Shown: positions 1-56,716 of the stretch, one piece after another
How positions within the stretch are numbered: the first letter of the stretch is position 1
How the letters are laid out: the number at the start of each line of letters is the position of its first letter
From: Porphyromonadaceae bacterium W3.11
GTDB lineage: Bacteria > Bacteroidota > Bacteroidia > Bacteroidales > Porphyromonadaceae
Direction: 5' to 3'
DNA: 64,000 bases
Assembly (NCBI GenBank): GCA_030434245.1
Contig: JAUISX010000006.1
Span: 1 to 64,000 of the forward strand
Translations under genes and position numbers: made by a program
The notes under the pieces: model-generated
Seen by the model: only the letters and a program-made list of their open reading frames with translations
Databases searched by the model: none
What the model was told of the DNA's origin: nothing

Positions 1-231
1 ATTAACAAATACCACGCTCATACCAGTATCTTGGCAGAGAGGCTTCTTATTATCACGGGCGATTTCACTATTTTCTAGGAGTGTCCCAAGGATCTCTTGA
101 CCCAGAGGAGAACGATCAGAAAGCTTGGACTCCGTCATTCTTTTCTTGATGTCTGGCACCATATAATAGCAGGCATCAATACAAAGCTTCGCTACAAGCT
201 TTGTGATATCTTTTGCTTCAATTTGTCGCAT
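1..231 (-). CDS. Class I fumarate hydratase / mesaconase alpha subunit, N-terminal part
   Basis: Only the first 77 codons lie in the window; the gene runs off the left edge. The ATG is at 231-229, and the translation (MRQIEAKDITKLVAKLC onward, with SPLGQEIL and PLCQDTGMSVVF) matches the N-terminus of the alpha subunit of oxygen-sensitive [4Fe-4S] class I hydratases. The CQDTG cysteine is a likely cluster ligand. Such two-subunit enzymes hydrate fumarate, tartrate or mesaconate. As the last visible gene of the methylaspartate operon, the likely reaction is mesaconate to citramalate. A housekeeping fumarase cannot be excluded from 77 residues. Confidence 0.8.
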   Translation of the reverse strand, partial: MRQIEAKDITKLVAKLCIDACYYMVPDIKKRMTESKLSDRSPLGQEILGTLLENSEIARDNKKPLCQDTGMSVVFVN

Positions 232-243
232 ACGAGTAAATAA

Positions 244-1221
244 TTAATAATTCTTGCTTAAGAAGTAATAAGAGTTACGATTGTCTATTTCGTTGTGGCT
301 ATTAAGATCTGAGTCCATTAAGCCTATCAAGCAGTAGGCACCATATCTGGCATCATAAATAAGCTCTTTATGAAGTGAGAAGTCTTCAATCTCACCAGTC
401 GATCTCACATGAAGTCGGGGTCCATCACAAGGGACAATAGCGTCTCCAATCATGATATGATCTTCATCATAGTAGTCTATTCGGATATCTTCATTGATGA
501 TTTCTTTAATCCTATTTTCTAGGCGTTCCAAATCATTGTGATTCAGATTAGGCTTTTCATTGAACTTAAGCACAAATCCTTTGGGTATATCCGCACTATA
601 ATATTGAGTCATATCGATACTGAAAAGCTCGTCTAAAGCAAATGACGCTACCTCTTCACCAGAGTGAGCCATCTTTCTGTATTTTAGTGACTGATGAACA
701 ATATCATATAGTATTTGAGGTTGTGGACCAAATATTGAAGGGCGAGTAACAATAATCTGTTCGCCTACTGCAAAAATTAGATCCGCATTCCGACCCAAGG
801 CCTGATTGAGAAGATTAAAGTGTTCAACAACAACACGCTTACCACGATCAAGTGCACCTTGAACAAAGTCAACAATCTCATACATTTGAGTGAAGGCTGT
901 CTGAAACCTCATATCAATGTGATACGTTGATGCTTCACGCATTTGATCCAGCCCTCCTCTCACCTGCATTATCTTACGAGGGTTCAGAACATCGTCATCA
1001 TTTGCCAGTTCAAGACCTGGAAAAATACCACGAATAAGAGACGATTTACCTGACCCTGAATCGCCTATGAAACCAATTAGGCGATCGGTAAAACTCAAGT
1101 GGAAATAAGATAATTGCTCCCCGAGCGTAAGGAGTCTCTCCTTACCTCGAGGGGCATAATATTGTGTAGAGACCCAGTGTTCCTGGACTCTCTTAGGTTT
1201 TGCAGAGTGTTTACTATGCAT
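244..1221 (-). CDS. P-loop protein with AlaRS second-additional-domain-like C-terminus
   Basis: 325 residues. A Walker A motif, GDSGSGKSS, sits at residues 53-61, directly after a short beta-rich start, so this is a nucleotide-binding protein. The C-terminal third contains IVPCDGPRLHVRSTGE, which recalls the metal-binding second additional domain of alanyl-tRNA synthetases. From memory, genes annotated 'alanine-tRNA synthetase second additional domain-containing' occur in methylaspartate clusters; their role is not known to me. The start overlaps the DUF4387 gene by 8 bases and the stop lies 12 bases before the hydratase gene, so it is translated within the operon. A chaperone or cofactor-handling ATPase is one guess. 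Confidence 0.7.
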   Translation of the reverse strand: MHSKHSAKPKRVQEHWVSTQYYAPRGKERLLTLGEQLSYFHLSFTDRLIGFIGDSGSGKSSLIRGIFPGLELANDDDVLNPRKIMQVRGGLDQMREASTYHIDMRFQTAFTQMYEIVDFVQGALDRGKRVVVEHFNLLNQALGRNADLIFAVGEQIIVTRPSIFGPQPQILYDIVHQSLKYRKMAHSGEEVASFALDELFSIDMTQYYSADIPKGFVLKFNEKPNLNHNDLERLENRIKEIINEDIRIDYYDEDHIMIGDAIVPCDGPRLHVRSTGEIEDFSLHKELIYDARYGAYCLIGLMDSDLNSHNEIDNRNSYYFLSKNY

Positions 1222-1534
1222 CGAATGTAAATCTTACTAAAGGTGCATGTTGCTGTGCACCATAAACGTCAGTTTCTCCTAGAGTACCACTAGGTATTGG
1301 GCGTTTGATAGTCGCTTTTACAGCTTTAGCAGGATCGAAGTAAATTACGTGGATAACGTCTTCTACAGGGATATGATACAATTCTGCAAACACTTCTGGA
1401 GTAATTGGCTCATGTTCCTTGAAGAAGTTATACTCTTCAAAAGTCTTAAAGATAACATCGAATGTCAATTCATAAGGTCCTGAGTTTTTACTCCGGATCA
1501 CTGATGCCATATCGATTAGTTTATAAGTTTTCAT
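1214..1534 (-). CDS. DUF4387 family protein
   Basis: 106 residues, soluble, no signal peptide. Recognised as the small DUF4387 family by its MASVIRSKNSGPYELTFDVIF start, the ITPEVFAELYHIP core and the GETDVYGAQQHAPLV C-terminus. Its function is not known. This family usually neighbours AtuA/DUF1446 proteins, as here: the AtuA-like gene ends 22 bases upstream. In this operon the two probably act together on a step or cofactor of glutamate fermentation. The distal end overlaps the next gene by 8 bases. Confidence 0.75.
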   Translation of the reverse strand: MKTYKLIDMASVIRSKNSGPYELTFDVIFKTFEEYNFFKEHEPITPEVFAELYHIPVEDVIHVIYFDPAKAVKATIKRPIPSGTLGETDVYGAQQHAPLVRFTFDA

Positions 1535-1556
1535 ATCTTGTTATTCCTTTCTCTGA

Positions 1557-2933
1557 TTAATTTACTTTACCATTCTTGAATTCCTTATAGGTAATAGGGA
1601 ATAGTGATACTGGATCTTCAACTTCCATCAAGTGATAGATATTGAACTCAAATACCTCACCCATGTGTGCATCAGATGGTGAGAATGGCAGTGCTAAGTT
1701 ACCTGCAGTAGAGACACGACCTTCATAACCAAAGTGAAGCATAGTGCTTCGTGCAAAGCTACAGATGGTGTCTGCTTCTTGCTGAGTAGCTCCTACAGCC
1801 TCGATGATGATCAATAACTCACTTCCAGTCTCAAATTCAACCTTAGGGAAAAGTCCCATAGCACCACCTTTACCATAAACCTTAAAGTCTAGGAAATAGT
1901 CGCTAAACCCATAATCCTTAAAGTTATTATTGACTCTTGCCTTAACTGCTGCTACAATTTCATCGATCTTGCTGATAAAGATAGGATCTGTAGCTGCTGC
2001 ACATGAGATGGTACGATATCCAACCTTACGAACACCTTCAAGCTTCACAAAGTAACCGTCAGTAGGTTCAAATACTGTACCTGCTACTCTTACACGGTTC
2101 TCAGCAATTTGCTCAAATGTTGTGTTGTGAAGGTTTAGACGACCTCCAGGCCCAGGGAGTAGATAAGGATTAGATTTCTCATATAGAGTATGAGCTGCGA
2201 TAGATAGTGTAGTACAGATACGATCTGGAGATAGAGTCTCCAATTCGAAGTGATCCTTACGAAGGTATCCAAACATACAGTCACTACCACTACCAGGAAG
2301 TGCACAGATAGCTGCACACTCTAGGATCTTACCCATATGGATGGCTAAGCCTTTTGGATAGCCTTTTGAGATAGCTAGTGCAGAGAATACTGTTGGGTCA
2401 TAAGCACGACCTGCAAGTATTACCTGTGCACCACCCTTTAGTGCTTCCATGAATGGCTCTTCACCCATTTGAGCTACGATACGTACTGATTCGTCTATAT
2501 CTTTTTCCTGAAGCTCTTCAGCAGGAGCTAGTGGAGTTATTTTTCCATCCTTGAAGTACTTGCGTACCAGTTCTTTATCAAATTCAGATGAGATTTCAGC
2601 ATACTTAAAGGATAAGCCCTTTGCTTCAGCAATCTCGCGGATGATTTCTCTATTTATCGCTACGTGAGGAGTTCCACCTGAACCACCAGAAGTACCAATG
2701 ATGACTGGGATACCAGCTTCAATAGCTGCAGGTATCATAATCTCAAGGTCACGTTTCACTGAATTGCGATCTGTAAATGAGATTCCAGCACCAAGGTAGT
2801 AGGGACCCGGGTCAGATGAACCTGCATCAACAGCAATCACGTGAGGCTTACGCTTCATCCCTTCCTGGAATGATTCCATTGGGAAACCATATCCAAGGAT
2901 AGCGGTAGGCGATAACACTCTAATTTCTTCCAT
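1557..2933 (-). CDS. AtuA family protein (DUF1446)
   Basis: 458 residues, cytoplasmic. The N-terminal pattern (VLSPTAILGYGFP, HVIAVDAGSSDPGPYYLG, IIGTSGGSGGTPH) and the later ILAGRAYDPTVFSALA and LPGSGSDCMFGYLRKDHF blocks identify the acyclic-terpene-utilisation AtuA/DUF1446 family. The founding member is needed for acyclic terpene catabolism, but its biochemical activity is unclear. Here it lies between methylaspartate ammonia-lyase (26 bases upstream) and DUF4387 (22 bases downstream). A role in the mesaconate/citramalate part of glutamate fermentation is therefore inferred. It is not a terpene gene by context. Confidence 0.8.
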   Translation of the reverse strand: MEEIRVLSPTAILGYGFPMESFQEGMKRKPHVIAVDAGSSDPGPYYLGAGISFTDRNSVKRDLEIMIPAAIEAGIPVIIGTSGGSGGTPHVAINREIIREIAEAKGLSFKYAEISSEFDKELVRKYFKDGKITPLAPAEELQEKDIDESVRIVAQMGEEPFMEALKGGAQVILAGRAYDPTVFSALAISKGYPKGLAIHMGKILECAAICALPGSGSDCMFGYLRKDHFELETLSPDRICTTLSIAAHTLYEKSNPYLLPGPGGRLNLHNTTFEQIAENRVRVAGTVFEPTDGYFVKLEGVRKVGYRTISCAAATDPIFISKIDEIVAAVKARVNNNFKDYGFSDYFLDFKVYGKGGAMGLFPKVEFETGSELLIIIEAVGATQQEADTICSFARSTMLHFGYEGRVSTAGNLALPFSPSDAHMGEVFEFNIYHLMEVEDPVSLFPITYKEFKNGKVN

Positions 2934-2958: not shown

Positions 2959-4203
2959 TTAAAGCACATCTTTAAGTGCTAGTATTCTGCTCATTTCATT
3001 GAAAACTAACATATAGCCTTCGTCCACACCCATACCAGGTTTAGCTAGCATTTGCTTAGGTTGAGTAGCCATTGCGATGTGAGCACAGATCTCAGCTGAG
3101 CGGTTAGTTTCGTTACATGTTCCACCAAGGTAAGCACCCATGTTGTGTTCCTTGCAATATAGGACAGCCTCGATGGCATTGTTGATACCGCCAAGGTCTG
3201 GGGTCTTAATTTGAGCCATGTGTCCAGCCTTTTCCTTAGAGAAGTCAATGATGTCCTCTAGAGTATTACACCATTCGTCAGCTACGATTTCAGCGTCAAT
3301 ACCCTTGTCATCCATAAACTTACGAATGTCATGAAGAGCTTTAATCTGTAGATCCTTATCTTCAACATCCACAGGTCCCTCTATTCTTAGGTGGAAAGGC
3401 TTAGCTGCTTCAGCAAGCTCACCAATGAAATCAGCGATCTTTTCCATATCGTTGTCAAATACGATACCAAGAGTACCATATACATCAATGTGGAATGTAG
3501 GATTGTATGATTCACTAACTCGTTTCTCAATGATACGATCACGTAGCCACTCAATGTAAGCTTTTAGCTTCTCGCCTTTCAGACCTGTTTTTTCTTCAAC
3601 ATGGTTGAATAATGCGTGAGGAAGTACTTCAGCACCCTTCATGATCATCTTATCCGCATTCAGATAACGGTCGTCACCTGACTGAGTAAAGATAGGAATC
3701 ATAGTGTCAGAGATCTTAAGATCATACTCCTCTGCAATGACTTGTGCCATTAGTTTATTTTGAGATTTAGCTACTGCATCAAGGCAAGCTTGAGTCACAC
3801 CATATCTAATAGCAGTATGGAAAGGCTTTCCAGTCTCAGGCTTAATGTACTTATCTACACGATCTGCCATTTCACGGAAAGTGGTAATATCCTTACCTTC
3901 ATACATCGGTGCGATCTCTTTTAGGATCACAGGGATGAAGTTTTTGGCAAGAAATAAAGGGTCACGACCACCTGCTCCTGAGTATTGTACTGCTGCACAG
4001 TCTCCGTGAGCAATGGCTCCATTTTCTAGGATGAAAAGTACTGATATTGATTCACCAGCTTGGCGAACATCCACGAACCCTTCTGTTACTGGTGTGCCAG
4101 AGTAAAAGGCACCATCATTTTTCGCACCACGCTTGATTGCACGTTGGTCGTCGAAGTAAAAACCAGTCTTACCAGGTGCACATACTACTTTCTTAATTTT
4201 CAT
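2959..4203 (-). CDS. mal: Methylaspartate ammonia-lyase
   Basis: 414 residues, about the length of the clostridial enzyme. It deaminates (2S,3S)-3-methylaspartate to mesaconate, step two of the methylaspartate pathway. It belongs to the enolase superfamily; the catalytic-lysine segment is visible as QIKTPDLGGINNA near residue 331, followed by AYLGGTCNETNRSAE. Metal-ligand acids sit in the preceding barrel strands (FHIDVYGTLG, RIEGPVD, EIVADEW). It lies 63 bases downstream of glmE, whose product is its substrate. No truncation is seen. Confidence 0.95.
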   Translation of the reverse strand: MKIKKVVCAPGKTGFYFDDQRAIKRGAKNDGAFYSGTPVTEGFVDVRQAGESISVLFILENGAIAHGDCAAVQYSGAGGRDPLFLAKNFIPVILKEIAPMYEGKDITTFREMADRVDKYIKPETGKPFHTAIRYGVTQACLDAVAKSQNKLMAQVIAEEYDLKISDTMIPIFTQSGDDRYLNADKMIMKGAEVLPHALFNHVEEKTGLKGEKLKAYIEWLRDRIIEKRVSESYNPTFHIDVYGTLGIVFDNDMEKIADFIGELAEAAKPFHLRIEGPVDVEDKDLQIKALHDIRKFMDDKGIDAEIVADEWCNTLEDIIDFSKEKAGHMAQIKTPDLGGINNAIEAVLYCKEHNMGAYLGGTCNETNRSAEICAHIAMATQPKQMLAKPGMGVDEGYMLVFNEMSRILALKDVL

Positions 4204-4266: not shown

Positions 4267-5715
4267 TTATTTACGACCAACTAAGAAGCCCTTACCGATT
4301 GCATATACGTCATCAATAACCATCTGGAAGTTCACCTCTCTATTTTCGAAGCGAGCTCTCTCTTCAAGTTTTTCCTTGTGTAGCTTTTTGATGTCATCGC
4401 TGAATGGTAGGTTACCGGTGTCTAGGAAGCGAACAGCACCAGTATTGTCACGTGCTGGCAGTACCGCTCCAGCATTGTATTTACTTGGGGCAAATGGGAT
4501 ATCAAGTACACCTGCCTCGAATGCAGCTATTGTACCTTGAGCCCAGTCTCCATTTCCAAGTTCTTCAACTTTTGCTAAGATCTGATCCACCTCTGCTTCG
4601 ATAATCTCAGACTCATTTAGCACCATAGGAATGTTGGTGAAATCTTGGTCGCGAAGCATGCTGATCACCTGCTTTGTAGCACGAAGACCTGCTGCGTTTG
4701 CTTCTTTGGTAGGAACACCCATCGCTTCATGAGGAGTTTTCACGATCACCTTTGTTGCTTTCGCAAGTGCAGCAGTTGCTGAACCCCATGAAATTACACC
4801 AAATGCCTTAGCTTCGTCCTGTGGGAAACCACCCATCCATTGGTGGAATACTGTTGTTACCTTAACATCGTCATATCCATACTTAGCTAGATACTCCTGT
4901 GTTTGCTTCCTAAGTGAGCGAATAGCGGCAACGTCTTGGATTAAGTTACCACACTGTCCATATCCTACAGTGATATCCTTCACACCCTGGGTAGCTGCTA
5001 GTAGAGATTCTATAATAGCTACGGCATTAGAAATACATGCTGGGATCAATGTACCTGTTAGTGGACCAAATGGCTCACGGTTGATATCCACACCAGCTTC
5101 TGCGTACATACCGCAAAGACGGTCAGTGTACTGCCAATATCTAATAGTACGAGCTAATGAATAGTCTTTAGAGTATGGGATGTTATACGAAATACCTCCA
5201 CCCTCATATGAAGTAAAACCGCCTGCGATAGAAAGCTCAGTCAGAAGACGAGCATCAGGGGTACCGTGTCGAACCTGTACAGGATTTTTAAGAGCTGATG
5301 TTACAGTACGGCAAATATCCACACCATAGTTAACGATTGGGAACCCATTTAGCATGGAGCGACCACTCTCCTTACTTTTTTCAATTCCCACTTCAGCCTC
5401 CTTGTAGCGATTAAGACGAGTGTAACTATCAACAGTTGAAGGAAGCAAGTCAGCCTCTCCTTCGTTCTCTAGGAATTGAAGAAGCTTGATGTGCTCATCA
5501 TAAAGTGCCACACCAGCTCGAGGTTGAATTAAGGTTACTCCCTCTTCTTGTGCTTTTTGAAGTTTTTGGTCAAATCTCTTCTTTGCTGGAATAGACTTTT
5601 GGTATTCTACAGCTTCATTGAAGTCCACATGAGCACCTGTAGGCCAAGTGGCTAATACTTCTTTCCTTTCTTTTTGAAATTCGTCGTCGCTAATTCGAAC
5701 GTTACGGATATCCAT
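4267..5715 (-). CDS. glmE: Glutamate mutase (methylaspartate mutase) E subunit
   Basis: 482 residues, essentially the length of the characterised epsilon subunit. This is the catalytic TIM-barrel component that, with GlmS and adenosylcobalamin, rearranges L-glutamate to threo-3-methylaspartate. Recognisable blocks are [50 protein letters not shown] and [10 protein letters not shown]. It sits between glmL (52 bases upstream) and mal (63 bases downstream) on the same strand. The sequence looks complete and active. Confidence 0.95.
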
Positions 5716-5767: not shown

Positions 5768-7150
5768 TTATAGGTACTTAAGCTCTTTTTTCATGATCTG
5801 AAGAGCCACATCAGGTAACTCAGCACTCAGAAGTCCCATAGATGCCATTATATATGTACTATCTAGTAGGAACTCTGGCTCCTTAGGTTTAGCAAATTCA
5901 TAGCAAGCTAGATCATATTTAACTCCAGATAGAATAAATGCTGGGTCTTCGCTGTGTACGAGAGCCCCACCAATTCCTAATACCTTGGACACCTTAGTCA
6001 GGTCTTTACCATCAATGGTATAAGCCTGCCCCATAGGCGTAAATACAGAGGTCATTTTCCCAACGTGTCTTTCTGTTGCTATCTTGATGGCACCCTTAGC
6101 TAAAGCCATTTCGAACTTTGATTCATGGGTATTTTCAGCCCTTCTTGACTTAACCTCAATACAAGACTTTATCCAATCTTCAAGTTCTTCTTGATTGCTA
6201 CCTATTTCTTTCGCTGAATCAAAAAGGTCTAGTTCTTCAGCTAGAGAGGATAAGCTATACCTCATGCCTAGATCTCCTTCCACTGTTCTCTTGCTTTCTG
6301 GCTCTGGAAGACCCCTCTGCATAATATTCGAGGCTGAAGGCTCTCCTTTCGCTATCGAATAGACATCGGTAGTCGCACCACCTAGGTCAACAGCTAGGAG
6401 CTCTCCAATTCCTTCTTCGGTGTGCGTGCCTTTACTGAGCAATTCGCAAGCATTAAGTACCGCTAGAGGTGTTGGGATGATCTCGTTAGCCGCAATGTCT
6501 TGAGCTGCTGTTAGTCCTTTTGCTTCGATGATAGAGTCGATAAAGAGCTGCATAATACATGCTTTGGCAGGCAAGATATTTAAAGTGTTAAAGTTGGGCA
6601 TAACGTTGTCTGTTACGACGAATGGACGCCCAGCCTCCTTTAGTATCTCGCTTACCTCTTCCTCCGCATTCTTGTTTCCAGCAACGATAATGGTGAATTT
6701 CCCCTTTATACCAGCTAAGACTTTAGCATTCTTGATAATAGTCTCTTTATTACCGCCATCTGTTCCACCGCAGAGTAGTACTAAGTCAGGTGCAATCTGC
6801 TCAATCTCCTGAGCTTCTCTTTTACTGATTTCGAAGGAGTAGGTTTTCATGACCTTAGCACCAGCACTTGATGCCGCCATTCTAGCTGCTTTAGCAGTCA
6901 GTTCTGGTACGAGCCCAGATGCCACCATCTTAAGACCACCGGCTGCACTACTGCAGCATAAAAAACGATCGTACTCCCATGTGCTATTCAGCTTGGCATG
7001 CAAGCTATCAATCGCAGCATGTAGTCCCTCCATTACATCAGTTTCGATTGTGGTGAATGCAGCCCCCGTTCCAATTATTTCACTCTTTTCAGTGTCAATA
7101 GCTGTTACCTTGGTATACGTGCTCCCAAAGTCTGCCGTTAGATATCTCAT
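5768..7150 (-). CDS. glmL: Glutamate mutase accessory protein GlmL (MutL)
   Basis: 460 residues. It is an ASKHA-fold ATPase-like protein: phosphate-1 motif DFGSTYTK near the start, LLCGGTDGGNKE in the middle, and phosphate-2 motif AVDLGGATTDVYS. Members of the MutL/GlmL family lie between glmS and glmE and are thought to protect or reactivate the B12 mutase, like diol dehydratase reactivases. Here glmS ends 50 bases upstream and glmE starts 52 bases downstream. The reactivase role is family knowledge, not shown by the sequence alone. Confidence 0.93.
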   Translation of the reverse strand: MRYLTADFGSTYTKVTAIDTEKSEIIGTGAAFTTIETDVMEGLHAAIDSLHAKLNSTWEYDRFLCCSSAAGGLKMVASGLVPELTAKAARMAASSAGAKVMKTYSFEISKREAQEIEQIAPDLVLLCGGTDGGNKETIIKNAKVLAGIKGKFTIIVAGNKNAEEEVSEILKEAGRPFVVTDNVMPNFNTLNILPAKACIMQLFIDSIIEAKGLTAAQDIAANEIIPTPLAVLNACELLSKGTHTEEGIGELLAVDLGGATTDVYSIAKGEPSASNIMQRGLPEPESKRTVEGDLGMRYSLSSLAEELDLFDSAKEIGSNQEELEDWIKSCIEVKSRRAENTHESKFEMALAKGAIKIATERHVGKMTSVFTPMGQAYTIDGKDLTKVSKVLGIGGALVHSEDPAFILSGVKYDLACYEFAKPKEPEFLLDSTYIMASMGLLSAELPDVALQIMKKELKYL

Positions 7151-7200: not shown

Positions 7201-7617
7201 TTATCTCTCGATTCCAAGAATCTTGTCTAGATCTTCTATAGTGGTCTCAATTGGAGTACCTGGAGGATAAACTTTATTGAAGCCCATATTCATGAATCTC
7301 TTTTCTACGTCGGCAAAATCTTGCTTTCCTACGACAAGGTTACCTCCTGCTAGAATAGGTATTTCCTTCAATCCAGCTTCATCACATTTCTCTCTCAGAC
7401 CATTACAGTCAATTTCGCCATGACCATATAGGGAAGAAACAAGGATAGCGTCAGCATTAGTTTCGATTGCTGCAGAAATGTACTCTTCCTGAGTGACCAT
7501 TACACCTAAATTTACTACCTTATAGCCAGCTTGCTGCAAAGCAAACGCAATGATCTTATTACCAACTGCGTGAGCATCAGCACCAATGACACCAGTAACT
7601 ATGGTTTTTCCGTTCAT
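7201..7617 (-). CDS. glmS: Glutamate mutase sigma (S) subunit, cobalamin-binding
   Basis: 138 residues, full length for the family. It is the small Rossmann-like subunit that binds adenosylcobalamin base-off/His-on. The signature D-x-H-x-x-G is present as D14, H16 and G19, and the conserved [10 protein letters not shown] and [12 protein letters not shown] loops follow. H16 should coordinate cobalt. It is the first gene of the operon. About 120 bases upstream is a TAnnTTTG promoter element; no cobalamin riboswitch is visible in the leader. Confidence 0.96.
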
Positions 7618-10499: not shown

Positions 10500-11774
10500 T
10501 TAGAATTCAAGAGTAAAGGTGTTGCCGTGAGGCTGAGCATTATATCTAAGGTTTCCTCCATGTAGTCGCATGATGTAGCGTGAGAGGCTCAAGCCGATGC
10601 CGTTGCCATTCTCTTTGGTGGTGAAAAATGGGATGAATATATACTCCTTAATCTCCTCTGGAATAGGTGCACCACTATTATAGATTTTCAGTAAAGGTCG
10701 TTTGTTATTGGTATGGTCGGAACTAATAATGATTTCTCCACCGTCTTCTGTCGCCTCTGCGGCATTCTTTAATATATTTTGAAGCACTTGCATTAATAAG
10801 CTCCTATCCGCTTCTATTTGCTGTATATCTTGGTTAAGATGCACACTTAATTTGATTTCCTTTTTCAGAACCTCTTCTTGGATAAGAAGTGTCGCCTGGT
10901 TCAGTAATTCCTGTATGTCTATTGTTTCGGTGTGAGGTTGAGGGACGGAAGTGAATTTACGATAGTTATCCACAAATGTTATGAGGTGCTCGGAGGTATT
11001 ATGAATGGTCTGTACCGCTTGGCGAGTAACCTCGTCATGTCCCTCTGGATTATTTAGTAACGTTTCTGAGATGGAGCGAATAGGAGCGATAGAGTTCATA
11101 ATCTCATGGGTCATTACCCTAATAAGAGAGATCCATGAGTCCGTTTCACGTTCCTCCAGTTCGCTATTGATGTCATTGAGTGTAATGATTATAGCGGTCT
11201 CGTACGCTAATTCAGTTGTGTTCTTCTCAACGACTAGTTCTTGAATTTCCTTTTCAGTTTGGATACTGACGCTATTACTCTCATTCTCCTTCATCTCTAC
11301 TATGGTAGAGTATAGCTCAGGGTACACTTGTCTGATGCGGTGGAGGTGGGTAACGACTGGAAGGGATAGGTAGGATAGTGCAGAGTGGTTAATGAATCGG
11401 ATCGTGCCTTCAGGTGAAGTGATGATAATCCCTGTAGGGACCTGCTCAATGATTTGTGCAAGAAAGCGTTCGTGGTCCCGTACCTCATCTTGTGTGCGTT
11501 GGATCAGCTCCTTGATTTTATTGAGAGTATGATTGAAGTCCTTATTACGTTCGGAGCCACTGCTTTCCTTGAAGTAAAAGGAGTGGTCGCTATTTTCTAT
11601 AGCTTTTAGGATCGTTATAATGTTTTGTTGAGACTTTTTGAGTGCCAAATAGCTCTTGATCATGAAGAGAATAGCGACCGTTCCACACAACAATGCCACC
11701 CACGTAGCTCCTTGGGTGGCAAGGAAGATACCTGCGATAGTAAGGAGTATGCTAATAATTGTATAACTCTTCAT
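10500..11774 (-). CDS. Membrane sensor histidine kinase
   Basis: 424 residues. Two hydrophobic helices within residues 5-42 leave almost no periplasmic loop, so it probably senses from within the membrane or the cytoplasm. A linker and PAS-like region ([18 protein letters not shown]) follow. The H-box is [12 protein letters not shown] with H223. The ATPase part shows the N box ([16 protein letters not shown]), a G1-like segment and the G2 motif [11 protein letters not shown]. It converges with the NtrC-type regulator and is its likely partner. Confidence 0.9.
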
Positions 11775-12173: not shown

Positions 12174-14555
12174 TTACTCTTCAGTGAGGTACTTTGTTGG
12201 GTTCTGATTGGCTGTAAAGTAGCAGTAGATCGCCATGATTAGGCAGGTTGCTACTAATACCCCTAGCCCTATGAGTATGAAATATAGGGGTGATAGGCTG
12301 ACTTGCTCAGATTGTGTTTCGACCCATGAACGAATGGCAATAAATGCTATGGCCAATCCTAATGTAGTAGATAGGATACCAATCCTGAGGTATCTCGTAA
12401 TGAATAGCTTCAGTATAGCTCCGAAGGATGCACCATTGACCTTGCGGATAGCTATCTCTTTGCGCCGTCTGGTTACTTCCTCCTCAGTGTATCCTATGAT
12501 GCCAATGAGTGCGATAATGATGGCAATTGTAGCTCCGAATAGAGTATAATGTCCAAGGTTCTGAATGCCATTAAAGAGATTTCGCATTTCTCTTTCAAGA
12601 GAAATTAATTCTGTATCCCCAAAAATGGAGTATTCATTGATGATATCGGTAACTTTCTTCACACTTTCTGGCTCAGAATCTTTAATCCGAATGAGCATGA
12701 TCTCACAGAAACGGTACCAAGCACCTCCAGCGATGACTACGCTCTCATCACTCAAAAATACTTTTCCAAACCTATTGGTCTTAAAGTCCTTACATACCCC
12801 TATGATGGTCATCGGGTTGCTGTGACTAGTGATATTGATTTCCTTACCGATAACTCCATCCGTCCATCCAAAGTCTTCTACTAGATGATGAGCAAAGGTC
12901 TCATTAACGATAGCATTCTTGCTGTGGCATGCTGCTGTGTCAAAGCCTTCTCCTTCTACAATAGGAATCTTAAATAGATCGAAGTAGTATTCGTCGCACC
13001 AGAAGTAATCCGATACGTTTCTTATCTCTTTGCCACTATCATCGAATAGATTATCACCACTTTGATATTTGTCTATTGGCGTTACTGATGCGAGCGAAAC
13101 GCTCTCAACCTCGGGAAGGTTACGAAGAACCTCCACGCTATTCTTAATCCCTAAGCTGTCAATAGAGGCGGTGGAAACGCCATACACATTTTGCACATCA
13201 TATCCCTTATCTAGACGTAGCATGTGGTTGTATTGCTTGTGTACGAAGTAAACGGTACAGAGTAGGAACGTAACGCCGAGTCCTTCAAGGAATAGAAGAC
13301 CTATTTTCCATCGTCTGTTAGACTGCTGATGATTTCTGATGGTATTCATTAAGGGTTGCTTGGCGATAATTCGCCCTGGTCCCATACTGATGATAAGTCC
13401 TGAGACGAATAGTACTCCTAGCATTACTAATGCTGTGGTGGGTGTCAACATCGCTTCTAAAGGTGTATTAAGCATATCACCTATGGTCTTTTTGAAAATC
13501 AAGACAAATAGGATACCAGCCAAGAGAGCGAAAAAGAGGTGGGTGATGGTATCTGCTAAGATACCTTTCATGATATCTGACTTCTTCGCACCTAAGCTTT
13601 TCCGAATGCCAGTATTTCTGCTACTATTGATGATGGAGGTTATGCGTAGCAGTAAGTAGTTGAATAGTGACATAAGTAGGACTACAATACCTATGATGGC
13701 TACTAAGGATAGAGTCGTAGAGACTATATTGTCTTGAAAATGAAGTGACCTTATGGGAAATGGCGTATAAGTCCAGAATGCATTGTATTCTTCTTTTATC
13801 TTATCGATATCTTGATATTTCTGTTGCATCCTATAGATGGATTCTTTTATATCCTCTGGATTAGTCCCTTTTGTGAGCTTTATTAGACCAGTGTATCTAT
13901 CATTGCCTAACCAGTTTTCTGAGCCATCCCAAGTGAAGTTCCCGATAGATGGCATCGAAATAATAATATCCATATCAAAGCTAGAGTTACTTGGTAGTGC
14001 CTTAAATACCCCGCCGACAGTGAGATATTTGCCAGGGAAATCTTTGAACTGAATTTGCTTCCCTATGACTTCACCATCAATCTTATCAGCTACCTCATCG
14101 CTAATCATACAGTACATAGACTGAGTGAGTATCTTTTTGGGGTCTCCTGATATGATGTCAGTAGTGATGAGGTCAAAAAAGTATTCATCTGCAAGGACAG
14201 CTGTATTAAAGGAGATACCACTCTTTTGGTCTGTGAAGATTTTAGAGTCGCCTGTGATACTCGTCCAGCGGGTAGCCACCTCTACCTGAGGGATCTCTTT
14301 TTTCATACTCGGTGCTACAGCACCAGATATGCCCATATACTCTTTTGTTTCGCCTCCATTTATAGAGCCGCCGGTGGTTTTCAAGAAGAATACACGGTCA
14401 CTATCCTTAATATAATCATCATAGGATAGTTCGTAAGCGACCTTAGCCAGCAGGATAAAGCTAATAGCAAAGCCTAATCCCAAGCTAATAATCTTGATGA
14501 TATTTAAGCGTCCTCCTTTGAAGAATCGCCTAATGGCAAATTTGAATTCATTCAT
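12174..14555 (-). CDS. ABC transporter permease, MacB/FtsX type, duplicated
   Basis: 793 residues. An N-terminal TM helix (IIKIISLGLGFAISFILLAKV) leads into a MacB-like periplasmic domain and three FtsX helices (IGIVVLLMSLFNYLLLRI and two more). The helix-domain-helices layout then repeats in the second half, ending IALIGIIGYTEEEVTRRRKEIAIRKVNGA and two helices. This double arrangement is the common Bacteroidota form. It partners the ATPase 4 bases upstream and the adaptor and TolC genes of the same operon, forming an inner-membrane exporter for an unknown substrate (peptide, lipid or drug). Confidence 0.9.
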   Translation of the reverse strand: MNEFKFAIRRFFKGGRLNIIKIISLGLGFAISFILLAKVAYELSYDDYIKDSDRVFFLKTTGGSINGGETKEYMGISGAVAPSMKKEIPQVEVATRWTSITGDSKIFTDQKSGISFNTAVLADEYFFDLITTDIISGDPKKILTQSMYCMISDEVADKIDGEVIGKQIQFKDFPGKYLTVGGVFKALPSNSSFDMDIIISMPSIGNFTWDGSENWLGNDRYTGLIKLTKGTNPEDIKESIYRMQQKYQDIDKIKEEYNAFWTYTPFPIRSLHFQDNIVSTTLSLVAIIGIVVLLMSLFNYLLLRITSIINSSRNTGIRKSLGAKKSDIMKGILADTITHLFFALLAGILFVLIFKKTIGDMLNTPLEAMLTPTTALVMLGVLFVSGLIISMGPGRIIAKQPLMNTIRNHQQSNRRWKIGLLFLEGLGVTFLLCTVYFVHKQYNHMLRLDKGYDVQNVYGVSTASIDSLGIKNSVEVLRNLPEVESVSLASVTPIDKYQSGDNLFDDSGKEIRNVSDYFWCDEYYFDLFKIPIVEGEGFDTAACHSKNAIVNETFAHHLVEDFGWTDGVIGKEINITSHSNPMTIIGVCKDFKTNRFGKVFLSDESVVIAGGAWYRFCEIMLIRIKDSEPESVKKVTDIINEYSIFGDTELISLEREMRNLFNGIQNLGHYTLFGATIAIIIALIGIIGYTEEEVTRRRKEIAIRKVNGASFGAILKLFITRYLRIGILSTTLGLAIAFIAIRSWVETQSEQVSLSPLYFILIGLGVLVATCLIMAIYCYFTANQNPTKYLTEE

Positions 14556-46179: not shown

Positions 46180-46527
46180 TATGCTGATCCCTTTTTGTGG
46201 CAGAGAAAAGGTAGAGGGCAAAGGCAGAGACAAGGTTTTGTGCGGAAATACTACCCCAAGTGGGGCTGGAGATTTCCGCAACAAACCAGAAGGGCATTGA
46301 CCTTGACGAAGCCGATGCCCAATACTACCTTTGCCACTAAAAAAGGGAACAGCTGATACTCCCACCTACGCAACTCTATGTGGAACGAAATGGGGAGTTA
46401 AGAGAAAGCGTGGAGACAAGAAATGAGACGTTATACGCTTTGAATAGCGACAGCACCATGCAAAAACGACCTGCCAATTTGAGCATCGTAGAGAGGCTTG
46501 GCAGGTTCTACAGATCAGAAAAATAGT
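46180..46527 (+). pseudogene. Decayed plus-strand element gene
   Basis: One frame reads GLEISATNQKGIDLDEADAQYYLCH, a TAA stop, then REQLILPPTQLYVERNGELRESVETRNETLY to a stop at 46527. The two halves are in the same frame and read like one protein with a nonsense codon near 46338. The family is not known to me; the composition is that of conjugative-element genes. Confidence 0.35.
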
Positions 46528-46576: not shown

Positions 46577-46727
46577 TAACCTTTTGATGAATACAAAACC
46601 CTATGTGTAGGTATTCAGCGGGAACCACCGTATAAGAGGAAAGTTGTTGTAAAACACTGTTTTACAACGACTTTTCATTGATTTGAAGACCTATTTGAAT
46701 ACCTTGTTGAAACTCAAAATAAGACCT
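46569..46727. repeat. 158-bp direct repeat, left copy, with terminator hairpin
   Basis: Nearly identical to 57710-57867, with only a few substitutions and one indel around 46640. It holds a near-palindrome at 46643-46671 (TTGTAAAACA/TGTTTTACAA) and the conserved CTATGTGTAGGTATTCAGCG. It overlaps the last codons of the DUF3945 pseudogene, for which the hairpin is probably the minus-strand terminator. Confidence 0.88.
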
Positions 46728-47716
46728 TATCTACCATGTTCTTTAGATAAAGGGTGGCTCCGTTGGTCAGTGCCTGCTGTTGCTTCTCTGATAGATCAAG
46801 TCCACAAAGTTTCTTGGGAATACGAGGCATCCCCTCCACCTTAACTGACTTGCCCTCCACAAGATCTTTGTACTGTTGATCGGTTAGTTCTACACTCTTA
46901 ATCTCCTTTGGAATGGAAACTCGGTCAGCACGAAGAGTAACCAACCCGTTGGCTAGCGGGTCAATAGAGACATAGGCTGAGAATGGTTCGCCGCTCTTGG
47001 GTATCAGCTCCACTACCTTACCAAGATTGCCCGTGGTCTGTAGTGTGGTTTTCTCATCATCAGTGAACTTGTATCCCATATAAGGGTAGTCAAGTTGTGG
47101 ATCTTTACGCATGGAGTGGACTGCCAAACCGATGTTGTCGTTCTCGTCCGTGCAGAAAGCAAGTCGGGCTTCGGTATAGATGGTCATGTCACCAACGGGT
47201 CCGGCAATCGTCACAAGGTTACTCTTCTGCCAATTGAGCAGTTTCTCCAACTCTCCGCTTTTTTCCAATCGCTCACGGGATAGTCCGAGACTGTCGAGCA
47301 TCTTCCAATCCACCTTTTCCGGGTCAATGGCTGTAGTGTTCTTCAGTTGGGATAGAAAGTCCTCAAAAGATATGCCCATCTTCGTCAGTTGCTCCTGCAT
47401 TTCAGGCTTCCCTCGGCTTTGAAGCATGCTACGGAGATTATCCACGCCTTGCTCCACGTTGTTGGACAAGACCTTGTCTAGTCCGAAACGGGTCGGGTCG
47501 TTGAACTGTTTGAGGAAGTTACTCATGAAGGTTTTCAGCATACTATCCTTCTGTTGAACTTCAAGAATGAAGCCTAATTTGCGGCTTCGGTGGTTTTTAG
47601 ATTGCCCTTCTCGTCAATCCCGGAAACTACGGAGAGCTTACCTGCCTCTTGTTCGCTCTTTACTTCTGAGTGGTCTTCTAAGACCAATACATAGTTGTCA
47701 CTGATATTCGATTCCA
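46714..47716 (-). pseudogene. DUF4099/DUF3945 element protein, disrupted
   Basis: ATG at 47716 opens a frame (MESNISDNYVLVLEDHS, VVSGIDEKGNLKTTEAAN) that stops at TAG 47575-47573. The rest continues in another frame from about 47550 (DSMLKTFMSNFLKQFNDPTRFG ... LEKLLNWQKSNLVTIAGPVGDM, VTLRADRVSIPKEIK, VKVEGMPRI). Both parts match one Bacteroidota conjugative-element protein, so there is a nonsense codon plus a one-base deletion. The C-terminal part is also shorter than usual. The second ORF alone could encode 275 residues. Confidence 0.75.
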
Positions 47717-55478: not shown

Positions 55479-56716
55479 ATGAGAAGACAATTTAAGATTT
55501 CCTCTACCTACGCTCCAACTACGAGACCAAAGAGGGAAAATCACCAATCATGCTTCGCATCTTTCTCAACAGAGAAATGGCGAACTTAGGGACAACAAAA
55601 CTCTATGTCAAGAAGAGTATGTGGAGTAACTCCACCAGCAGAATGAGAGGACGTACAGCTGAAGCATTGGCACTAAACTCCCCTCTTGACTCTCTTTCCA
55701 CCTCTTTGTATGAGATGTATAGGAAGATGGAGGATGAGGAAGGTTTGACAGTTGAGAGGCTCAAGCAGGCTTATCTTGGGCGAGACAAGGAGTTTACTAC
55801 TTTACTCCCAGTCATCAATAAGTATCTGGATCATGTAGCACAGCAGGTTGGGAAGTCGCTAAGTAAAGATAGCCTACAGAAATACACGGTCGTTAAGACT
55901 CACTTTATACGTTTCCTCAAAGCTATATACAATAGAGAGGATATTGGACTCTTAGAGTTTACCCCTGCAGTTGTTATGGATTTTGAGTTGTATCTTAGGA
56001 CAAAAGCCAATCTGGCACACAATACGGCACAAAAGAAGCTCAAACTCTTGAAGACGATGACGATCTTCGCTCAGAAGCGTGGCATCATTATGCACGATCC
56101 ATTCATGGATGTCAAGTTCCACTCTAAACCCGTGGATAGGGGTTTCTTGACAGAGGACGAAGTCGAAGCAATTGCGAATAAAGACTTGATAGAATTACCA
56201 CGCTTGGAGCTTGTAAGAGATTTTTTTGTATTCTCTTGCTTTACTGGACTTGCATACATAGATGTATGTAATCTAACTCCAGATGATATTGTGACAATGG
56301 ACGGCAAAGAATGGGTTATGTCAAAGCGACAAAAAACTAATGTCGCATTCAATTTGTTGCTTTTGGATGCCCCAAAGCAAATCATTGCTAAGTACGACTA
56401 CAAGACCTATAGAAATGGTAAGCTTTTTCCCGTACTCTCAAATCAAAAGATGAATTCCTATCTAAAGGAAATTGCCGACATTTGTGGAATTAAGAAGAAC
56501 TTGACCTTTCATCTTGCTCGTCATACTTTTGCGACCCTCTGTTTGAGCAAAGGAGTTCCAATAGAGTCTGTTTCCAAGATGTTAAGACACACAAACATCA
56601 GAACTACGCAGATATACGCCCGTATAACCAATAAGAAGATAGAGAAAGATATGATGGATCTTGCGGATAAGCTTGGAGACTTTTCACTGAATAATGTACC
56701 ACCATTACAACAATAG
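55479..56716 (+). pseudogene. Tyrosine recombinase (integrase), frameshifted near the start
   Basis: ATG 55479 gives MRRQFKIS, then the frame is lost; inserting one T near 55503 would give FYLRSNYETKEGKSPIMLRIFLNREM, the normal N-terminal arm-binding domain. From 55550 the frame is open to 56716 (388 residues). Catalytic residues are visible: R in SCFTGLAYIDVCNL context, the HLARHTFATLCL H-x-x-R, and the Tyr in TQIYARI. Restart at ATG 55550 could make a protein lacking about 24 residues. DUF1896 follows directly. Confidence 0.8.

Follow-up and report, generated by a model that had tools for sequence, protein, structure and literature searches.

We analyzed a 64,000-nucleotide stretch of DNA (the window) from Porphyromonadaceae bacterium W3.11 (JAUISX010000006.1, positions 1 to 64,000), which begins at the end of contig C6 of genome G000. 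At this end, an operon on the minus strand combines the genes for glutamate mutase (glmS, glmL, and glmE) and methylaspartate ammonia-lyase (mal) with three genes encoding an AtuA/DUF1446 protein, a DUF4387 protein, and a P-loop protein of an undescribed family. This operon is probably complete from glutamate to pyruvate, with the AtuA/DUF1446 and DUF4387 proteins acting as a citramalate lyase (CmlAB) and the P-loop protein serving separately as an accessory factor for the mutase subunit GlmE. An earlier interpretation of the same DNA made from its letters only (the sequence-only reading) had correctly described the three genes, at 244-2933, as adjacent and tightly packed between mal and a mesaconase-type hydratase gene (from an 8-base overlap to 25 bases apart). 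It was mistaken in stating that none of them has a known step, since PDB entries 9erq and 9evf name AtuA/DUF4387-type chains citramalate lyase subunits A and B. Citramalate cleavage is the reaction expected after mesaconase, so the missing step of the pathway lies among the genes said to have none.

As outlined in the part of PMC8473912 considered here, glutamate is converted via methylaspartate, mesaconate, and citramalate to pyruvate and acetate. GlmS and GlmE, together with GlmL, would convert glutamate to 3-methylaspartate, Mal would turn this into mesaconate, a class I fumarase pair acting as mesaconase would form (S)-citramalate, and CmlAB, replacing an acyl carrier-dependent CitDEF-type lyase, would split the latter into pyruvate and a C2 product. 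The P-loop protein, predicted to combine a TsaE-like ATPase with an altered AlaX-like domain, would be accessory to GlmE. An additional enzyme upstream of citramalate was considered and set aside as unneeded, all the steps to citramalate being present. The features of the operon are as follows.

7201..7617, minus strand: glmS, methylaspartate (glutamate) mutase subunit S (NCBIfam equivalog TIGR01501 above cut-off)
5768..7150, minus strand: glmL, mutase accessory/reactivating protein (NCBIfam NF040745 above cut-off)
4267..5715, minus strand: glmE, methylaspartate (glutamate) mutase subunit E (TIGR01503 above cut-off)
2959..4203, minus strand: mal, methylaspartate ammonia-lyase (TIGR01502 above cut-off)
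1557..2933, minus strand: cmlA, putative citramalate lyase subunit A, annotated AtuA/DUF1446 (PDB 9erq_A/9evf; PF07287 above cut-off)
1214..1534, minus strand: cmlB, putative citramalate lyase subunit B, annotated DUF4387 (PDB 9erq_B; PF14330 above cut-off, 136 bits)
244..1221, minus strand: P-loop/SAD protein, 325 residues, glutamate mutase-linked, undescribed family (relatives in 48 loci; AlphaFold2 model)
727..1176, minus strand: predicted TsaE/YjeE-like P-loop domain of this protein, about residues 16-165 (VIA fold match, weak PF02367)
307..693, minus strand: predicted AlaX/AlaRS/ThrRS editing-fold (SAD) domain of this protein, about residues 177-305, with altered signature (VIA fold match, weak PF07973)
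1..231, minus strand: 5' part of class I fumarase (mesaconase) alpha, ATG at 231 (reading frame; runs off the window)

Transcription proceeds in the order glmS-glmL-glmE-mal-AtuA/DUF1446-DUF4387-P-loop open reading frame (ORF)-start of class I fumarase alpha, with 25 bases between mal and AtuA, 22 bases between AtuA and DUF4387, the 8-base overlap between DUF4387 and the P-loop gene, and 12 bases between the latter and fumarase. The end of contig C5 carries the remainder of fumarase alpha, together with a gene for fumarase beta (locus L006; PF05683 match at G000:C5:286046-286555). The ends of C5 and C6 (window 1-130) belong to one common fumarase-alpha reading frame; because both ends carry it, C5 and C6 almost certainly meet within the operon. 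In named genomes, a scan yielded 47 loci with relatives of the P-loop protein, 48 when L003 is added. In a recount of gene order that excluded hits below 38% identity, the complete order glmS-glmL-glmE-mal-cmlA-cmlB-Ploop-mesA-mesB was found in 24 of these 48 loci, which come from Bacteroidota, Desulfovibrio, and Bacillota, so the arrangement is not due to chance. Nine of the other 24 loci are truncated where the retrieved sequence ends; the rest lack some of the genes or have them rearranged. No cobalamin riboswitch was found upstream of glmS in the window at the Rfam gathering threshold, and a promoter/terminator scan, which gave about as many sites as shuffled sequences, was not used.

A putative two-subunit citramalate lyase

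The AtuA protein matches PDB 9erq_A/9evf over residues 4-442 (E 1e-144), and the DUF4387 protein, encoded 22 bases from it, matches 9erq_B over residues 5-105 (E 5.4e-31). The molecules in 9erq and 9evf are named citramalate lyase subunit A (cmlA) and subunit B (cmlB), and 9evf, released 2025-10-08, is entitled "Citramalate lyase - ADP - pyruvate complex." An AlphaFold2 model of the window subunit A (mean predicted local distance difference test score, pLDDT, 84.4) superposes on 9evf_A with a VIA Z score of 46.8 and a root mean square deviation of 2.9 over 449 aligned residues (48% identity). As assessed by Foldseek, the two are 52% identical with a template modeling (TM) score of 0.91, and long conserved blocks are retained. 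The window pair is therefore like the CmlAB of 9erq and 9evf in the homology of both subunits over nearly their full length, in the adjacency of the two genes and, by prediction, in the fold of subunit A; it differs in subunit A, which is 48-52% identical. Subunit A also belongs to the AtuA family PF07287 (72.9 bits versus a cut-off of 22.8), like AtuA of acyclic terpene utilization. In contrast to the latter, its gene lies in a glutamate operon beside mesaconase, and the Pfam name is misleading for this branch. CmlAB itself is already known through the PDB, and the Pfam and NCBIfam names do not yet reflect its function. Homology, together with the replacement pattern across genomes described below, argues that the AtuA and DUF4387 proteins form the two-subunit citramalate lyase CmlAB, and the title of 9evf suggests that a nucleotide takes part in the cleavage, perhaps in carboxyl activation. 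The unrecognized enzyme of mesaconate/citramalate metabolism envisaged in the sequence-only reading fits this pair, as an enzyme of citramalate metabolism. The role in Fe-S or cofactor assembly, which it had proposed for the three genes, was dropped, no domain having been found in support.

Other glutamate fermenters use a citrate-lyase-like citramalate lyase, according to the portion of PMC4682846 consulted. If CmlAB does the same job, each locus should carry CmlAB or the citrate lyase-type subunit CitF, but one only. In the genome of the window, which is 99.98% complete, CitF (PF04223) has 0 matches, and an E. coli control was matched. Among 27 genomes with the P-loop gene, 21 have DUF4387 only, 3 have CitF only (G374, G377, and G390), 3 have neither, and none has both; CitF scores above the cut-off in 3 of the 27, a fourth match (G388) falling below it. 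DUF4387 is missing from exactly the 3 CitF genomes among 19 checked, and 5 of the other 8 have DUF4387 and 3 neither marker. G374, G377, and G390 are draft or metagenome assemblies of 1.3 to 2.8 Mb, so absences there are weaker.

A larger sample of 398 genomes, from the phylum of G376, contains GlmE at E <= 1e-20 in 86 genomes and DUF4387 in 93. CitF was sought in 80 of the 86 GlmE-positive genomes, three others being covered by the 27-genome search, and 15 of the 80 have a match of any kind, 14 above the cut-off, and 11 a strong one (rows with E < 1e-50). The excluded rows are weak or partial (G400, G478, G557, G745, and one small G466 piece), and, apart from the G466 piece, whose gene was included in the count, none of them is on the glmE contig and within 15 kb of that gene. 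DUF4387 is found at this distance from glmE (15 kb or less) in 48 of the 86 genomes, strong CitF in 4 (G466, with a broken frame, G519, G598, and G664), and both in none. These distance counts omit a 66-base DUF4387 fragment in G527, which is still scored as DUF4387-positive in the two-by-two tables, and a second fragment in G395. When read gene by gene, L098 and L099 carry glmS-glmL-glmE-mal-citD-citE-citF, and L095 (mal in two pieces), L096, and L097 carry glmS-glmL-glmE-mal-cmlA-cmlB. CitDEF (with CitC/X/G) of clostridial glutamate fermenters shares with CmlAB the pathway step and the place in homologous operons (L098, L099, and L035), but no sequence relation between the two was seen and CitF is absent from the genome of the window.

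The pair also occurs away from glutamate mutase, 27 of the 93 genomes with DUF4387 in the 398-genome sample being without GlmE. On a Neorhizobium plasmid and a Klebsiella plasmid it is part of catabolic operons with fumarate hydratase, and no glm gene is present in the stretch read. The common partner in the glm operons and on these two plasmids is thus a fumarase, as would be expected if the pair is a citramalate lyase working downstream of mesaconase. The Klebsiella operon (L110), on the conjugative plasmid pHNLC3, comprises a LysR regulator gene, the AtuA and DUF4387 genes, four dehydrogenase-type genes, and fumarate hydratase; it perhaps encodes a route from a C5 compound via mesaconate and citramalate, the stretch read having no glutamate mutase gene. 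On an E. coli plasmid, the gene order is glmS-glmL-glmE-mal-DUF1446-DUF4387-symporter-class I fumarase-cobO. Plasmid records contain CmlA matches in 49 cases and P-loop matches in 2. In the parts of PMC4682846 considered, Kronen and Berg (2015) reported that Enterobacteriaceae and Dictyoglomus carry, downstream of mal, a DUF1446 gene whose function they did not know, and did not settle what becomes of citramalate. This enterobacterial cluster, as seen in those parts and on the E. coli plasmid, resembles the operon of the window in its glm-mal-DUF1446-DUF4387 genes with mesaconase; it differs in that no P-loop gene is present in the E. coli stretch or among the genes named in the figure legends of PMC4682846. 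In Prevotella intermedia, mal and AtuA genes are listed together in an iron-response table, the part of PMC10434189 considered here.

A P-loop protein that travels with GlmE

The P-loop gene is present in 73 of the 398 genomes, and 71 of these carriers have GlmE; the two others are G395, with a broken copy, and G644, where the gene lies on a 3.5-kb contig. By genome class, it is found in 59 of 66 genomes with both GlmE and DUF4387, in 12 of 20 with GlmE only, in 1 of 27 with DUF4387 only, and in 1 of 285 with neither. Since it is commoner with DUF4387 inside the GlmE-positive genomes (59/66 versus 12/20, p 0.005), the two are not wholly independent; the p-values and the odds ratio obtained from this sample are uncorrected for relatedness, and the p-values are descriptive only. 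The sequence-only reading had treated the three genes as one unit and had proposed a gene-neighborhood survey, in which scattering of the triplet independently of glmE would count against it. In this survey the unit came apart, with DUF4387 occurring without glmE in 27 of 93 genomes and the P-loop gene occurring with glmE and without DUF4387 in 12 of 20 such genomes; the link between the P-loop gene and glmE stands.

Individual loci show the same behavior. In L035 and L038 the order is glmE-mal-Ploop, with cit genes nearby and no CmlAB. L053 consists only of glmS-glmL-glmE-Ploop, with neither mal nor cmlAB beside the P-loop gene. In Peptoclostridium acidaminophilum, the P-loop gene lies between citC and citX, near citF, a CoA ester lyase gene, citD, and glmS-glmL-glmE-mal. 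The P-loop protein is thus not part of CmlAB and travels with GlmE whichever lyase is used. When the pairwise distances of seven operon proteins were compared over 32 complete loci, the partial distance correlation of the P-loop protein was highest with GlmE (0.44, against 0.23 for GlmL and 0.16 for CmlA); the pairs are non-independent, hence this support is weak. Hits below 38% identity were excluded from this comparison, as were GlmS, GlmL, GlmE, Mal, CmlA, and MesA hits below 80% coverage. A sample of 247 genomes from the window's own phylum was uninformative, full-strength GlmE and any DUF4387 being confined to the genome of the window and ten other PF06368 matches being weak. A sample of 119 genomes from its order contains two real P-loop genes (G000 and G115); the ORF with a third match (G052, E 8e-4) looks by eye like an S41-type peptidase, and this match was dropped. 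In L103 (the 3.5-kb contig of G644), the P-loop frame and a partial DUF4387 share one open frame of 443 residues, which is a fusion or an assembly artifact. In the Desulfovibrio glm operon L038, the P-loop gene is followed by an apparent CobA/BtuR-like corrinoid adenosyltransferase gene (10991-11512, by eye), and the E. coli glm cluster (L111) carries cobO (12881-13483), which together make a B12 link.

The AlphaFold2 model of the P-loop protein (mean pLDDT 83, predicted TM score 0.77) has two domains. About residues 16-165 match TsaE/YjeE/YdiB with VIA Z scores of 9.4-10.1 (1htw, 6n9a_E, 5np9, 6s84, 6nak, 1fl9, and 5mvr; the set includes HI0065, Thermotoga TsaE, and B. subtilis YdiB), the next unrelated structures scoring 7.3 or less. 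About residues 177-305 match AlaX/AlaRS/ThrRS editing domains with Z scores of 14.6-15.2 over some 125 residues (1v4p, 9iuw, 1wnu, 2zzg, and 1qf6). In a family set of 29 members, selected from the 48 P-loop loci and the window known at that point, PF02367 (TsaE) matches weakly in 23 (best E 8.7e-5; 17.6 bits versus a cut-off of 26.6 for the window protein), PF07973 (tRNA_SAD) weakly in 19 (best E 4.9e-5; window protein below cut-off), and TIGR00150 weakly in 6 (window protein with no match at E <= 0.01), and general P-loop families score about equal to TsaE. The window protein has no Pfam or NCBIfam match at E <= 0.001. Searched against PDB sequences, the P-loop profile found general P-loop proteins only, neither TsaE nor AlaX, the fold assignment having come from the model, and hhalign aligned it to E. 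coli TsaE over 40 columns (probability 61, residues 30-71) and to E. coli AlaRS over 101 columns (probability 15). Support from sequence for a relation to TsaE and AlaX is weak. A similarity to pyridoxal phosphate enzymes in the Foldseek list was discarded as noise (TM about 0.2).

Motifs were compared in 77 P-loop proteins, namely the window protein and 76 non-redundant homologues aligned over 250 query residues or more. A Walker A GKS, an H-x-D, and E133-H134 are invariant in 77/77, although part of the set came from a scan requiring motifs at residues 13-28, which biases the invariance in that region. Judged by eye, their counterparts in E. coli TsaE are GKT, YHFDLYRL, and LVEWPQ, the Trp after Glu being replaced by His in all 77. 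The protein is therefore like TsaE/YjeE, the ATPase of t6A biosynthesis, in its predicted fold, Walker A, H-x-D, and Glu, and unlike it in having E-H for E-W, a fused editing fold, and a link to glutamate mutase. In the C-terminal half, the HxxxH and CxxxH motifs of AlaX/AlaRS editing domains, which we take to be catalytic, are changed. HxxxH (HSATH in E. coli AlaRS) is HxxxD in 49, HxxxE in 27, and HxxxQ in 1 of the 77, its first His (H186) being kept in all. CxxxH (CGGTH in E. coli AlaRS) is CxxxR in 76 and CxxxK in 1, with C265 in 77/77. Six residues after C265 there is a His (H271) in 68 proteins and a Gln in 9, and hhalign places H271 opposite the AlaRS His with a two-residue insertion. 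What this half shares with the AlaX/AlaRS-ThrRS editing domain (PF07973) is the predicted fold, the first His, and the Cys; the second His is Asp, Glu, or Gln, and CxxxR/K has its His two residues further on in 68/77. The editing signature has thus been altered and not just lost, and may still form an unusual site for a metal or ligand. By the tests made, the protein is TsaE-like and AlaX-like in build and a member of neither family.

The P-loop gene is also found beside GlmE-like proteins that have lost the active site. In G386, G387, G389, G410, G651, and G675, the sole GlmE match at E <= 1e-20 is divergent and a P-loop match lies 60 to 71 bases away. We compared 13 selected GlmE sequences at R100, R149, E171, and K326, which we take from the Clostridium cochlearium enzyme to be substrate/coenzyme positions. 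Its numbering applies because the window GlmE aligns without gaps to PDB 1cb7_B (residues 1-481, E 2e-204). Four of the divergent proteins from these genomes (L048, L051, L092, and L093), together with the GlmE-like protein of L094 (33% identical), have lost most of the residues for substrate and coenzyme: R100, E171, and K326 are changed, as is R149 except in L094. In L094, the gene and the P-loop gene are about 3 kb apart. Next to these GlmE-like genes, the stretches read contain no genes for GlmS, GlmL, Mal, or mesaconase, the rest of those genomes being unsearched. Because the P-loop gene persists beside such proteins, its product probably serves the GlmE protein and not the product of GlmE. 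Other Bacillota loci (L091, L100, L101, L084, L086, and L087) have GlmE or a paralogue (48-64% identical) near HgdC-/HgdB-type genes, by eye and from gene starts components of a 2-hydroxyacyl-CoA dehydratase, and some also have a MurI-like racemase gene. The legend of Kronen and Berg, in the part of PMC4682846 considered, also names MurI and HgdBC.

Weighing the explanations

TsaE acts on the ASKHA-fold proteins TsaB and TsaD, and GlmL and the HgdC-like neighbors in some Bacillota clusters are presumably ASKHA proteins too. Tentatively, the P-loop protein would be an ATP-driven assembly, cofactor-loading, or gating factor for GlmE. It would possibly act via its ASKHA-fold partner GlmL, as TsaE does with TsaB/TsaD, the SAD-like domain being the recognition or sensing part. 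ATP use by the protein and its service to GlmE are both inferred. That a new ATPase family arose from TsaE-type and altered AlaX-type parts, was recruited to B12-dependent GlmE, and outlasted the mutase active site is a rather doubtful extension.

Several observations weigh against this account of the operon. The P-loop gene is absent from 15 of the 86 GlmE-positive genomes, some of them with glm-mal-cmlAB or glm-mal-cit operons (L095-L099), and from the glm-mal-cmlAB-fumarase cluster of the E. coli plasmid. The P-loop protein is therefore not essential to the mutase, and the sequence-only reading, which suggested that all three genes are needed for the pathway, is likely to be right for the pair and less certainly so for this gene. 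These same operons have GlmL, which speaks against action through it. In Bacillota, the P-loop gene is often directly upstream of rph-rdgB (L042, L044, L047, L048, L051, L084, L086-L094, and others), which is the best alternative context and could be the true one. As for the lyase, 34 of the 86 GlmE-positive genomes have neither marker within 15 kb of glmE, G393, G510, G541, G729, and G769 have CitF in the genome and neither marker near glmE, and a literature search, with preprints outside its scope, found no paper on CmlAB, the lyase function being taken from PDB names. In addition, 5 of the 11 GlmE-positive genomes with strong CitF (G466, G659, G682, G729, and G769) also carry DUF4387, so the mutual exclusion of CmlAB and CitF holds per locus, not in every genome. 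In those 5 genomes DUF4387 is on another contig from CitF or megabases away, and in four of them CitF would represent ordinary citrate lyases.

Four other explanations were considered. Because 3-methylaspartate is an unusual amino acid made by glutamate mutase, the P-loop protein could be a trans-editing enzyme that clears tRNA(Asp) mischarged with it. Its C-terminal half has the AlaX/AlaRS/ThrRS editing fold, and its gene accompanies that of GlmE, which makes methylaspartate, even where neither mal nor cmlAB is adjacent (L053). Polar residues also persist at the motif site (H186 and C265 in 77/77, Asp or Glu at 190 in 76/77, and H271 in 68/77) and H271 is aligned with the His of the E. coli AlaRS motif, which would allow for a modified metal or catalytic site. 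Yet HxxxH and the CxxxH spacing are each lost in 77/77, Gln replaces H271 in 9/77, and an ATPase domain is unexpected in an editing enzyme. A protein acting on methylaspartate or its tRNA would not be expected to survive in genomes where the only GlmE match at E <= 1e-20 is a GlmE-like protein lacking active-site residues. That the gene does persist beside such proteins argues most directly for a link to the GlmE protein, and editing is for this reason unlikely. A housekeeping factor for RNA or nucleotides, with the GlmE link reduced to old synteny, would account for the rph and rdgB neighbors in Bacillota and for two domains whose folds are related to tRNA-acting proteins. We regard it as quite unlikely in view of the Bacteroidota and Desulfovibrio loci, where the gene lies inside glm operons, of clusters with GlmE and rph but no P-loop gene (L100 and L101), and of a presence that follows GlmE with an odds ratio of about 730 (uncorrected for relatedness).

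The position of the P-loop gene directly after cmlB, with an 8-base overlap, and between citC and citX in P. acidaminophilum would agree with a maturation or regulatory part of citramalate lyase, whether CmlAB or CitDEF. This is very unlikely, given CmlAB operons without the P-loop gene (L096, L097, and the E. coli plasmid), its absence from 26 of 27 genomes with DUF4387 and without GlmE, and its occurrence beside GlmE-like genes in G386, G387, and G389, which have neither DUF4387 nor CitF. Finally, relatives of AtuA/DUF4387 in other catabolic operons leave room for a CmlAB-like pair that has drifted to another activity on mesaconate or citramalate. Against this stand the 52% identity to 9evf_A along the whole chain, the long conserved blocks, and the location of the pair beside mesaconase in a genome without CitF, which make such a drift most improbable. 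An accessory role of the P-loop protein for GlmE, next to CmlAB as the lyase, remains the explanation that we prefer.

Other features of the window and significance

Outside the operon, the sole Rfam match at the gathering threshold in the window is an abiF RNA (RF03085, 56.8 bits) at 46469-46505 on the minus strand, whose neighbors are a DUF4099/DUF3945 ORF (46714-47541) and a 188-residue ORF without Pfam match. A phage-type integrase (PF00589 with PF13102) is encoded at 55550-56716 on the plus strand and may mark a mobile element in the right part of the window.

CmlAB may explain how many anaerobes finish glutamate fermentation without a citrate-lyase-like enzyme. It is also the likely answer to the question about citramalate left by Kronen and Berg (2015), in that the DUF1446 gene next to mal, followed in E. 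coli by DUF4387, would encode citramalate lyase (PMC4682846, in the parts considered). For this branch, "acyclic terpene utilisation AtuA" and "DUF4387" are misleading labels in the databases. Among the papers listed in a literature search that paired TsaE or AlaX with glutamate mutase, none was relevant. The P-loop protein represents a widespread family that accompanies glutamate mutase and has no dedicated Pfam or NCBIfam model; it is a candidate for a step in handling a B12 mutase. If this is true, the family would link tRNA quality-control folds to radical B12 enzymes.

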